Source of the DNA: a virus
Length of the DNA stretch: 44,991 nt
Strand: one strand, 5' to 3'
IMG/VR virus record: IMGVR_UViG_3300013006_000052
Coordinates: 1-44,991 of that record
Within the stretch, counting starts at the first letter, position 1, and each line of letters begins with the position of its first letter. Below are positions 37,871 through 44,991 of this stretch, one piece after another. The notes under the pieces are model-generated. The model searched no databases. It had not been told where the DNA came from and saw nothing but the letters and a program-made list of their open reading frames with translations. A program made the translations under genes and the position numbers.

Positions 37871-38092
37871 ATGCCTATAGACATAACAATTAACGATATT
37901 TCTGGTCAAACACCATTTGATGTTTACGTATGTAACACCGGACAGACATATTGTGTTTATTCGGCGACAATAACATCTGGTAACTTACCTTACACTTTTG
38001 AAGTTCCAATTTCTTTTCTAAACTCTGAAAGTGTTAATTTAAGAATTATTGATGATAATGACTGTCAAATAAATCAAATACTCATAATATAA
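37871..38092 (+). CDS. Small beta-rich virion-type protein (73 aa)
   Basis: 73 residues, almost all beta by eye (PIDITINDISGQTPFDVYVC, YTFEVPISFLNSESVNLRI) with three Cys. The pattern of short strands resembles the first domain of tail or adhesin proteins in this region. Its stop overlaps the next ATG (TAATG), so it is made together with the poly-Thr adhesin-like protein. Confidence 0.6.
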   Translation: MPIDITINDISGQTPFDVYVCNTGQTYCVYSATITSGNLPYTFEVPISFLNSESVNLRIIDDNDCQINQILII

Positions 38093-39168
38093 TGGCTTGT
38101 ACTGAAATAAATTTTTGTGTAGATTCTGGTGGTAACCTTTATGATGGTGAATACTCAACAGATACCAGTACATATAATGGGTTTACTTCTTATACTGGTG
38201 ATAGTGTACCATTTTTTATTTACTATTCATTAACTGAAGATAGATGGTGTTTATCTACAAGTTTGGGTGGTTCTTGTTTACAATTTGGTCCGGTTGGTAT
38301 TGTTAGTGATTGTCCTGATTTTGATGAAAGTTTTTTTATAACTGGAATTTGCATTACAACCACAACAACAACTTCTCCTTGTGATGTTTTTGATTTTGAG
38401 GCGATTTTTGATTGTTTGGTCCCAACGACTACCACAACAACCACGGTAGTTCCAACAACAACTACAACAACTACAATCCCTTTTGATCCTTGTACTGGAG
38501 TGTCGGTAAATGCCTCAATAACTGCTTATACAACGACAACAACAACAATACCTGTTACAACCACAACAACAACAGAAATTATAAGACCTTGTAATTTTGA
38601 TGGTATTGTAACATTTAATACATTTGATGAATATATGAGATGTGGTAATAGTAAGAAATTTAGAGATTGTTTAACGGGTCTTGAATATTTTTCAAATGAA
38701 TTAGTATTTAACGAATCTGGTGATACTTTAATTCAAAATTGGGTTTATAAATCAACAATAAATGGTGTGTCGACTTGTGTTACGTTTATGGGTCTGGTTG
38801 ATAACATTAGTGGTTCAGATTTGGTTGTAATAAATGAAACTTTAGGTTCCGAATTACAAGGTGCTTGCTTAGAGTGTGTTCCGGATCAAACAACTACAAC
38901 AACCACAACGGTCGCACCAACAACAACCACCACAACAACTGCTGGTTGTCAAATAATTCAATATATTGTGCAAAATAATGGAATTACTATTCAAGAGCTT
39001 AAATATTTTGATTGTGATGGTAATACAATAAATTGTATAATTGGTACTGGTATTAATTCAACTAGAAAAATATGTTCAAGTAATCTTCCGATTGTATTAC
39101 CTAATTCCAATGTTTTGGTATATCCAGTTGTTCCACAAACATTTTGTAGTTCTGTAACAATTTGTTAA
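38092..39168 (+). CDS. Cys-rich adhesin-like protein with poly-threonine linkers
   Basis: 358 residues made of short Cys-rich beta modules (SDCPDFDESFFITGIC, CDVFDFEAIFDC, CNFDGIVTFNTF and a C-terminal CQIIQYIVQNNGITIQ) separated by linkers of six or seven Thr, often flanked by Pro or Val. The linkers lie at 38353-38379, 38421-38479, 38530-38574 and 38889-38940. The same linker style is found in the minus-strand proteins at 39910 and 42634, so all three are probably exposed virion (tail/fibre/head decoration) proteins, and the Thr runs may be glycosylated, as in mucin-like linkers. No Pfam-level match is claimed. Confidence 0.7.
   Translation: MACTEINFCVDSGGNLYDGEYSTDTSTYNGFTSYTGDSVPFFIYYSLTEDRWCLSTSLGGSCLQFGPVGIVSDCPDFDESFFITGICITTTTTTSPCDVFDFEAIFDCLVPTTTTTTTVVPTTTTTTTIPFDPCTGVSVNASITAYTTTTTTIPVTTTTTTEIIRPCNFDGIVTFNTFDEYMRCGNSKKFRDCLTGLEYFSNELVFNESGDTLIQNWVYKSTINGVSTCVTFMGLVDNISGSDLVVINETLGSELQGACLECVPDQTTTTTTTVAPTTTTTTTAGCQIIQYIVQNNGITIQELKYFDCDGNTINCIIGTGINSTRKICSSNLPIVLPNSNVLVYPVVPQTFCSSVTIC
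38421..38574. repeat. ACN triplet repeat tracts encoding poly-Thr
   Basis: Imperfect ACA/ACC/ACT/ACG triplet runs. Codons are mixed, so the Thr run is kept at protein level rather than by simple slippage. Related tracts lie on the other strand at 40460-40512, 40710-40730, 41917-42050 and 43684-43711. Confidence 0.8.
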
Positions 39169-39202: not shown

Positions 39203-39252
39203 TTATATGTGTTTTAACATATAATTTTAATTATATGTGATTTATCATATAT
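39203..39252. repeat. Cluster of mutually pairing TTATATGT/ACATATAA arms
   Basis: TTATATGT (39203-39210), ACATATAATT (39217-39226) and AATTATATGT (39229-39238) can pair in two exclusive ways, and CATATA follows at 39246-39251. The stretch lies between the terminator and the RuvC-like stop codon. Confidence 0.55.
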
Positions 39253-39860
39253 TACTTCCAAATTTCTTTTAACCTCATAAACCCTAAAACACAAGTATAG
39301 GCATCTGTTTGGTCAAAATTTTCTTTTTTAAGTGTATTGTTTTTTGTATAACCCCAAGTTATTTGTGGTTCACGTTTTGCAACCCTTTCCCAAATTAACA
39401 TTTTTTTATCAATATCTTTTGGTAAACCACCAAATAAAACATATTTACCCTTATCATTTTCTTTAACAAATTCTGGCCAAGCGTATTTTCTTGAGTTATA
39501 AGTTGATATAAATTCCGGAACAATACCTAAAATATTATATATTTCTTTACAAACAAAACTATTAAATCTTAATAGGGTTTGGATTGTATATACATTATTT
39601 GAATTTAACAATGGTTCTTCGATAATTACCTTAACAATTCCCAAATTAACATATTGTTTTAGTTTTTCGGCAAAAATCTCCGATTTTAAAATTAATTCTT
39701 TTAATTTATCATCATCACCCTTAACAATTTTTGGTCTTGGTGAAATATGTGTTAATTCCAATAATTCTTGGTTTTGTACGTCAAATAAAGCCCAACCAAT
39801 TGTACGGGTTGAGATATCTAATCCCAATACTTTTGGTGAATTTTTAATTTGTTTTCCCAT
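39252..39860 (-). CDS. RuvC-like Holliday-junction resolvase
   Basis: 202 residues with the RNase H-fold pattern of RuvC: LGLDISTRTIGWALFD (about 13-28, first catalytic Asp), VIIEEPLL (about 78-85, Glu) and the C-terminal DQTDAYTCVLGF (about 184-195, last acidic pair). It would cut four-way DNA junctions or branched replication products before packaging, the job of T4 gp49 by a different fold. It is a single gene between virion-type genes, with its own terminator. An 8-bp hairpin (39862-39883) ends two bases before the ATG and may restrain translation. Confidence 0.88.
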   Translation of the reverse strand: MGKQIKNSPKVLGLDISTRTIGWALFDVQNQELLELTHISPRPKIVKGDDDKLKELILKSEIFAEKLKQYVNLGIVKVIIEEPLLNSNNVYTIQTLLRFNSFVCKEIYNILGIVPEFISTYNSRKYAWPEFVKENDKGKYVLFGGLPKDIDKKMLIWERVAKREPQITWGYTKNNTLKKENFDQTDAYTCVLGFMRLKEIWK

Positions 39861-42633: not shown

Positions 42634-44712
42634 TTATATTTTTTGTGCTGCAATTTCAGCAGGTGGGTTTACAACTTGTACATCACAACATATACAATTA
42701 TTGACTGTTGGGTTTCCAACAAGATATAAACTAAATGTTCTATTTGCGCCACGACATAAACCTAGTGGTAAATTATTTATAATATCAGTATACGAACCGG
42801 TTATTGTTTGTCCACCACTTATTGTTAATTGTTTTGTATAATTCTTTATTTGTTGATTCTGCGTTATTGGAAGAACAGAGCAATTAAGACTCAAAACACT
42901 TTGACTATTATTTATAGACGGAATACCCATATCACCTAAACCACCGTCAAATGTAACAACATTATCTAATGTTGGGGCTGGTGTAATGCTTGCTGGATAG
43001 TAATTAAGTTGAGAATATTGTTCGATAGAAAAAGTAATTGTCTGATTTGGTGTAAGATTATTAGATGGTTGTATCTGGAATGTATTTAAATTATCGTCAA
43101 TTGTTAATGTTAAAACAAAAGTTTGTGGATTTGTTTGTGTTAATGTAACAAAATTAGGTGTTGATTGATTACCTAAACTATCTTTTACTACAACAATGTA
43201 GTTTCCAGCGTTTAAATTAGAGAATGTTGATAATGTACTAAAAGTTGTTCCGTTGTTTATTGAATATTGATACGGCGGAACGCCTCCATACCCCTGTATT
43301 GTTATACTACCTTTTGTTTCACAAATTAAATCGTTTTGTGTTATGTTTGCAGTAACTTCTTTATAACTTACACAAGTGCCTGTTGTTACGGTAATGTCTA
43401 TAATATTAGGGTTACCAAGTCCTTGCCAACCAATTAAAGGTGGTGTTGCTGGATTGTTATTTATAATACTACCAAAAATTGAGCTTCCAGATACAACCCA
43501 CTGATTTGTCGTTCCGGTATTAAAATACATAAACGATATGTTATCATCTGATAACCAACTTTGATTACCGTTAGTTATACCATAGGGTTCAAACTGAATT
43601 TGATCTAAAATTACATATTCTACTCTTGTTCCACTTCTTCTTCTAATTGTCATACACAAATCACCATATACTGGTAGTGGTTTTATTGTTGTGGTTGTTG
43701 TGGTTGTTGGTGTTTCAGCGGTTAAAACACAAGTTGTGTTGGTGGTAAAATCACCATAGAAATCAATAACAGTTGCATTGTAATTTCCAGCGTTAAGATT
43801 ATAAATTAATGGTGTAATACTTCCGGTACTCCAAATTATTGTATAGGGTGATGTTCCACCAGTTATTATTAATGTTGCTGCACCATCAAATGAATTATAA
43901 GTTGATGGATGTGTTACTAAACACTCAACTTCCATCGGGAATATTGTTAAGACATCACATTCATTTCTTGGTTGTATTGTAATTGGTACAGAACAAGAAC
44001 ATCCTTCTTCTTGGTTAATTTCAAATCCATAAGTTTCAACACAGCTTTGTACTCCAATGTATTTTACTTCGTAACATTTTTCTGGTATTGGTATAGGGTC
44101 TGTTATAGTGATTAATAATGAATTATTTACATATCCAGAAAAAATTGGATTTGCACTAGTGAATGTTGGCACAGTTCCATCACAAGAAGATATTTCATAA
44201 CAATCTGTATCGCAAGGGTGGTTTTCAACGCAGCTTGGGCAACCTAAGTCACCAAAAACTTCTGGGTTTTTAAATATTGGATAATAATTTGGTTGTAAAC
44301 CAAATTTTATTGTTTTTTTATCGTAAACATAAAAACATCCATCATATGTTTCACCGCTAGGTGATGAAGGAACATAATTATCGCAGTACACAGAATCGTC
44401 AAGATTCAAATAATCATCATTTGCAAGAATTGTTATATATTGATTATCAATACAACAAGAACTTAAAAAATAAATTGAATTTGGTGTTACAAATGGGTCA
44501 CGTTCAAAATTACTTGTGTTACCGGTTATTGGGAATAAAGAACAAAAATTTATTATAGCACTTTCTTGTGGTTCAAAACTATCAGAAACTGTATTTCCAG
44601 AACAATCAATAAACGTTAATGTTTCAGTTGTTGTTCCGGTATTAACAATACTAGTGACTTTACAAGTTGTAAAACAATTTAGAACTAATGGTGGGAATTG
44701 GATTTTAGCCAT
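42634..44712 (-). CDS. Virion-type adhesin with SprB-like repeats
   Basis: 692 residues. Residues 1-260 are Cys-rich beta modules. Residues about 264-320 (YNSFDGAATLIITGGTSPY, IIWSTGSITP, NLNAGNYNATVID) match the SprB repeat: Gly-rich strand, GGxxPYxxxWSxG, then LxAGxYxVxVxD. A second copy lies at about 462-515 (CETKGSITIQGYGGVPPYQY, NLNAGNYIVVVKD). A TTTTTTT linker (about 336-342) joins the halves. SprB is the mobile surface adhesin of Flavobacterium gliding, and these repeats are typical of Bacteroidetes surface proteins. A host-contact role on the virion is likely but inferred. TATTTATT lies 3 bases before the ATG. Confidence 0.78.
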   Translation of the reverse strand: MAKIQFPPLVLNCFTTCKVTSIVNTGTTTETLTFIDCSGNTVSDSFEPQESAIINFCSLFPITGNTSNFERDPFVTPNSIYFLSSCCIDNQYITILANDDYLNLDDSVYCDNYVPSSPSGETYDGCFYVYDKKTIKFGLQPNYYPIFKNPEVFGDLGCPSCVENHPCDTDCYEISSCDGTVPTFTSANPIFSGYVNNSLLITITDPIPIPEKCYEVKYIGVQSCVETYGFEINQEEGCSCSVPITIQPRNECDVLTIFPMEVECLVTHPSTYNSFDGAATLIITGGTSPYTIIWSTGSITPLIYNLNAGNYNATVIDFYGDFTTNTTCVLTAETPTTTTTTTIKPLPVYGDLCMTIRRRSGTRVEYVILDQIQFEPYGITNGNQSWLSDDNISFMYFNTGTTNQWVVSGSSIFGSIINNNPATPPLIGWQGLGNPNIIDITVTTGTCVSYKEVTANITQNDLICETKGSITIQGYGGVPPYQYSINNGTTFSTLSTFSNLNAGNYIVVVKDSLGNQSTPNFVTLTQTNPQTFVLTLTIDDNLNTFQIQPSNNLTPNQTITFSIEQYSQLNYYPASITPAPTLDNVVTFDGGLGDMGIPSINNSQSVLSLNCSVLPITQNQQIKNYTKQLTISGGQTITGSYTDIINNLPLGLCRGANRTFSLYLVGNPTVNNCICCDVQVVNPPAEIAAQKI

Positions 44713-44724: not shown

Positions 44725-44991
44725 TTAGTTTTTTGTTTTTTCAATATAAGATTTCATAACCTCAATATATTTTATTGTTGTGCTATTAGAATCTATATAA
44801 TCGAAATGATTTTCATTTTCACGAAGTTTTTCTATTGGGTCAACATTTATGTAATCACCTTTATAAAATTTTGTAGATTTAAGGGTGTCGGTTACACCTG
44901 CCATATGAAGAATAGGCATTTTTTCATATTTTTCTACGTTATCTGTGGCCCAAGAAAAATCAAGTTCATTTGTAATTTCAGTTTTATAGTC
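44725..44991 (-). CDS. Partial hypothetical protein, N-terminus cut by window edge
   Basis: The frame is open to the right edge (88 codons plus stop are visible); an internal Met at 44919 is not a credible start, because coding-like sequence (FSWATDNVEKYEKMPILHM) continues upstream of it. The visible part includes PILHMAGVTDTLKST and a charged helical end. The HMAGVT segment reminds me of the C-terminal part of some phage glycosyltransferase-like proteins, but this is too weak to name it. Confidence 0.6.
   Translation of the reverse strand, partial: DYKTEITNELDFSWATDNVEKYEKMPILHMAGVTDTLKSTKFYKGDYINVDPIEKLRENENHFDYIDSNSTTIKYIEVMKSYIEKTKN

Follow-up and report, generated by a model that had tools for sequence, protein, structure and literature searches.

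A probable adsorption fibre with SprB-type Ig-like domains, encoded beside a near-constant partner gene in uncultured T4-like phages

Introduction

Ig-like domains have long been known from the surface of virions, as in T4 Hoc (PMC10385173) and the T5 capsid decoration protein pb10 (PMC5292684); the domain by which Hoc binds the capsid lies at its C-terminus and has an alpha/beta structure (PMC10385173). On the bacterial side, the Ig-like repeat described by the Pfam family PF13573 (SprB repeat) recurs in Flavobacterium SprB and other T9SS adhesins, and Ig-like domains also make up part of GhpA, the very long grappling-hook surface protein of the Bacteroidota member Aureispira. The occurrence of SprB repeats in phage proteins is itself already known from UniProt, in which several proteins of uncultured Caudovirales (A0A6J5LDA4, A0A6J5LD72 and A0A6J5MUM3) are annotated as 'SprB repeat'; these are annotated entries only, for which the open-licence papers searched gave no function, family analysis or genomic module.

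Here we consider a 692-aa protein, P0001, encoded by the virus record IMGVR_UViG_3300013006_000052, the whole of which (positions 1 to 44,991; 44,991 bases) constitutes the window of this analysis. P0001 has its phage origin and SprB annotation in common with the UniProt entries, which also supply its best viral structural matches, and its Ig-like repeat in common with the T9SS adhesins. Unlike the latter, it carries just two repeats, is encoded by a phage within a tail module and has no T9SS sorting domain. GhpA offers the closest solved fold, but is a bacterial protein of thousands of residues, and the likeness is one of fold, with low whole-chain TM-scores. Full-text searches of open-licence papers returned no published description of the P0001 family, and as a defined, paired and widespread family it appears to be new.

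Results

Identification and domain architecture of the P0001 family

A first-pass annotation of the window had noted two SprB-type repeats in P0001 and had proposed a profile search to check them. In a Pfam search PF13573 indeed matches two stretches of the protein (whole-protein E 9.9e-6), with a whole-protein score of 25.5 bits that lies slightly below the curated cut-off of 28 bits; close orthologues score at or over that cut-off (27.9-36.1 bits). A six-frame search of the record placed both matches in the P0001 frame (Table 1) and found no further PF13573 place in the window. A chance match is untenable, because divergent members of the family are matched as well: the profile recognises 33 of the 39 aligned relatives, which span 26-87% identity to P0001, with a best E of 1e-11.

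NCBIfam gave no match to P0001 at E up to 1, so the T9SS C-terminal sorting domain (TIGR04183, TIGR04131) was not found; PADLOC likewise returned no match, and tblastn of P0001 and of its partner P0002 (see below) against cultured phages yielded none for either protein. A PDB sequence search with P0001 alone gave nothing beyond chance hits, which were set aside. No signal peptide is seen by eye at the N-terminus (MAKIQFPPLVLNCFTTCKV). The protein is rich in cysteine (4.05%, vs 1.38% for the contig).

The family core comprises, in order, a first SprB-type domain (Ig1), a threonine linker, a variable beta domain (X), a second SprB-type domain (Ig2) and a Cys-rich all-beta C-terminal domain (C), to which N-terminal modules may be added (Table 1). 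Ig2 is covered in all 39 aligned relatives and Ig1 in 30, a canonical Ig1 being absent from some members. The two SprB-type domains are the most conserved parts of the core, with mean pairwise identities across the family of 0.55 (Ig1) and 0.43 (Ig2), vs 0.35 for X and 0.30 for C, the most divergent of all; among close orthologues, too, the SprB domains belong to the least-changed stretches. Runs of at least five threonines are not peculiar to P0001, which has one: the tail sheath has two, P0002 five and a 358-aa ORF (38092-39168, + strand) seven.

Table 1. Positions in the window of P0001, its domains and the adjoining genes
Feature	Position	Strand	Remarks
P0001	42634..44712	-	692 aa; predicted fibre protein of the virion; two Ig-like domains of SprB type
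N-terminal Cys-rich modules	43993..44685	-	residues 10-240; optional; no more than 7-10 of the 39 aligned relatives have them
Ig1	43714..43986	-	first SprB-type domain, residues 243-333; PF13573 22.6 bits at 43819-43896
Poly-Thr linker	43687..43707	-	residues 336-342; other T/S/P-rich stretches instead in relatives
X domain	43363..43677	-	residues 346-450; all-beta, divergent
Ig2	43129..43359	-	second SprB-type domain, residues 452-528; PF13573 29.7 bits at 43243-43344
C-terminal domain	42664..43128	-	residues 529-683; all-beta; invariant C611, C653, C675, C676
P0002	39910..42615	-	901-aa partner, 18 nt downstream of P0001
RuvC-like resolvase	39252..39860	-	closes the conserved P0001-P0002-RuvC cassette
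326-aa protein, C-terminal part	44725..44991	-	phrog_4417 (unknown function); directly upstream of P0001, cut by the window end

Predicted structure and relationships of the SprB-type domains

An AlphaFold model of P0001 built with 39 sequences displays Ig1 and Ig2 as Ig-like beta sandwiches and both X and C as all-beta domains. Core pLDDT is about 90 and the global pTM only 0.39; the individual domain folds in this model are thus reliable, and the arrangement of the domains relative to one another is not. Among solved structures, Foldseek retrieved as best folds the grappling-hook Ig domains of Aureispira (9flp and others; E 2.7e-6), and among viral proteins a 'SprB repeat' protein of an uncultured phage (E 2.1e-17), with tail and Hoc proteins scoring weaker; query-normalised whole-chain TM-scores of the fold matches are low (0.07-0.16). 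At the sequence level, the family profile finds its best PDB match in the T5 pb10 Ig domain (5lxk; E 5.8e-5) and also hits the neck whiskers gp24 (9occ; E 0.0028). The Ig-like nature of these domains is therefore supported by the model, the fold matches and the sequence matches alike.

The phage repeats align to the SprB repeats of one Bacteroidota genome at 43-51% identity, the bacterial repeats having among themselves a median best identity of 53%. On this alignment, the SprB-type domains of P0001 probably share common ancestry with the domains found in surface adhesins of Bacteroidota. The same identities, drawn from the repeats of that one genome, show no sign of recent capture from a host adhesin. 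In one comparison phage repeats came out closer to bacterial repeats than to other phage repeats; as it set 34 bacterial repeats (some duplicated) against three from phages, this result was not used.

The phage and the gene neighbourhood

The window overlaps a 115-kb IMG/VR contig, IMGVR_UViG_3300013014_000020, by 12,226 bp with 4 mismatches. This contig encodes a tail sheath (phrog_23), a tail tube (phrog_4542), two baseplate wedge subunits and a DNA polymerase, and its phage is a large, contractile-tailed, T4-like one. Judged by sheath and wedge, it comes closest, among named phages, to Microcystis phage Mel-JY01 and Flavobacterium phage immuto, and likewise to an uncultured 484-kb phage, all at 26-34% identity. 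A search of genome collections gave a single match, to a contig binned as Bacteroidota (27% identity), which is suggestive only as a clue to the host. Together with the Flavobacterium phage relative and the adhesin domain itself, it indicates that the host is probably a member of the Bacteroidota. In the tail sheath (L020:945-4601, - strand), the best match of its 1218 aa to known sheaths is limited to about the last 300 residues, and the remainder contains Thr runs.

The first-pass annotation had placed the P0001 gene next to those of tail-like proteins, and the overlapping contig confirms this, with the gene at the end of a baseplate/tail gene run. Downstream of the wedge genes there follow on one strand several large ORFs and then genes for 1001-aa, 732-aa, 100-aa, 564-aa and 326-aa proteins, P0001, P0002 and the RuvC-like resolvase, after which comes a primase-like gene, so named after its immuto relative. 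The 732-aa neighbour carries SprB repeats as well (E 5.5e-8), the 115-kb contig having five SprB places in all, and it matches phrog_26672, a 'virion structural protein'. In immuto, the interval from wedge to primase holds genes annotated as tail fiber and tail spike, and the P0001 gene, lying between baseplate wedge and primase, occupies the same slot. As no SprB repeats were found in the nearest cultured phages, immuto and Mel-JY01, this correspondence is one of position and not of homology of P0001.

P0002 belongs to no named family in Pfam, NCBIfam or the phrog profiles. Its own profile matches a 337-aa protein in the wedge-primase interval of immuto (E 2.5e-6); a further match, to PDB 8zvk, was discounted since it falls in a Pro/Thr-rich linker region. 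The AlphaFold model of P0002 is poor (mean pLDDT 48.6), and its length varies between orthologues (901 vs 975 aa) through an insertion in the linker region.

Two other neighbours may be mentioned in their own right. The 326-aa protein (complete at L001:7008-7988), found directly before P0001 in many relatives and encoded in 43 of the 66 layouts described below, has an HDAD motif that by eye gives it a glycosyltransferase-like appearance, and the Thr-rich linkers could be its targets; its matches in the PDB are weak and partial, without clear meaning. Repeats resembling by eye those of trimeric-autotransporter heads occur in the 564-aa protein and in proteins of 1093 and 1258 aa (L001:5279-6973; contig 98486-105610).

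Distribution of the family and constancy of the pairing

Searching IMG/VR with one conserved pattern gave 197 P0001 relatives, and P0002 has 210 relatives there. For the best 80 of these 210, which comprise 55 non-redundant cases, the gene directly before P0002 belongs to the P0001 family in 54; conversely, when the search starts from P0001, P0002 is paired with it in 78 of 80 loci, the two without it being short, at 3.7 and 4.0 kb. The gene set from the 1001-aa protein and the SprB-bearing 732-aa protein through P0001 and P0002 to RuvC is kept across 66 distinct layouts. Many relatives (L062, L072, L078, L091, L094-L099 and others) have the P0001-P0002-RuvC block in inverted orientation with respect to the block of 302-aa, 1001-aa and 732-aa genes, and some relatives have two P0001-family genes. 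A distant relative, L118, a contig in a Bacteroidota genome bin, has the 302-aa, 1001-aa, P0002 and RuvC genes in that order in the absence of both P0001 and the 732-aa gene. Hence the P0001 fibre is accessory there, and it looks as though an older tail module had either acquired the SprB-type fibres at a later stage or lost them.

Discussion

P0001 as a probable virion fibre

The domain identity, family conservation and predicted fold of P0001, along with its pairing with P0002 and location in a tail module, lead us to favour a reading in which it is a fibre on the surface of a large, T4-like phage with a contractile tail and its SprB-type Ig domains are structural spacers; to this reading we give a probability of roughly 0.7. 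It is gene order that points to the presence of the protein in virions, most likely as part of the tail or adsorption apparatus. Under this reading, the two Ig-like domains would act as rigid spacers holding the divergent X domain, and the N-terminal modules where they exist, away from the particle; the Cys-rich C-terminal domain, with P0002, would anchor the fibre, and the outer domains would let the virus reach and hold the cell surface, with X as the candidate receptor-facing domain. The polarity of such a fibre, the anchoring role of P0002 and binding by X are accordingly to be taken as predictions. The first-pass annotation had allowed that the repeats may be just a convenient stalk, and this suggestion gains support from their Ig-like sandwich folds, their standing as the most conserved part of a family whose X and C domains diverge, and their virion-surface counterparts in T5 pb10 and the neck whiskers.

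Alternative interpretations

Ig-like domains can also project from a head, and in a Hoc-like or pb10-like arrangement the C-terminal domain of P0001 would bind the capsid with the Ig domains directed outwards. This agrees with the T5 decoration protein heading the PDB sequence matches of the family profile, and with matches of phrog_2973 ('Hoc-like head decoration') to 6 of 39 family members (best E 9.3e-7) and of phrog_26672, which is filed under 'head and packaging', to 4 family members as well as the 732-aa neighbour. However, the phrog_2973 match in P0001 is confined to the Ig stretch 472-529, and the putative anchor is predicted to be all-beta and is Cys-rich, unlike the alpha/beta capsid-binding domain of Hoc. 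Since, moreover, the gene sits in a run of tail genes with a dedicated partner, we consider capsid decoration unlikely. An intracellular or secreted role, for instance in superinfection exclusion or as a surface factor, would accommodate the variable N-terminus and conserved core, an architecture equally fitting for modular effectors, and the neighbourhoods of Bacteroidota TANFOR toxins are enriched in SprB repeats (PMC7073777). Yet P0001 matches no defence or toxin family (PADLOC, Pfam, NCBIfam), and its tail-module location, the near-constant pairing with P0002 and the N-terminus without a visible signal peptide make a non-virion protein a very unlikely prospect.

The first-pass annotation had further proposed mimicry, by which the repeats would let virions dock to, or ride on, the gliding or adhesin surface machinery of the host. 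The identity of the phage repeats to bacterial ones, little below the bacterial median, is compatible with this, and gliding adhesins have been implicated in phage adsorption (PMC7345892, PMC13288928). The asserted link between SprB or gliding and phage sensitivity thus stands in the literature as far as possible receptors are concerned, but the cited work does not treat gliding proteins as something that virions imitate. In a sample of 61 Bacteroidota genomes, strong SprB repeats occur in 11, every one of which encodes the T9SS protein SprA; as SprA is present in 47 of the 61, such a result would arise in a chance draw at about 4%, and it says only that T9SS users have such adhesins. Against mimicry, P0001 lacks the sorting domain, the repeat is generic (145 copies over many ORFs in one Bacteroidota genome), and secretion and propulsion are, as a title listed in PMC7073777 has it (Kulkarni et al. 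2019), facilitated by the carboxy-terminal region of SprB, not the repeats. For these reasons the proposal finds no support here; it is weaker still than capsid decoration, and we regard it as highly improbable. The same low standing is given to a functional variant, in which P0001 and the 732-aa protein would owe their SprB-type domains to Bacteroidota adhesins, and virions would use them to bind the partners of those adhesins, be it surface polysaccharide or the T9SS/gliding surface, and would thereby profit from the moving surface of the host.

Implications

Were mimicry nevertheless true, it would provide a direct link between phage adsorption and gliding motility. On the favoured reading of P0001 as a virion fibre, the family represents a widespread group of proteins that likely serve uncultured T4-like phages as adsorption fibres; they have recognisable modules and a near-constant partner gene. 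These modules are targets for the prediction of receptors and hosts, and the SprB-type repeat would be an adhesin domain type common to the surfaces of Bacteroidota and, probably, to the particles of phages.
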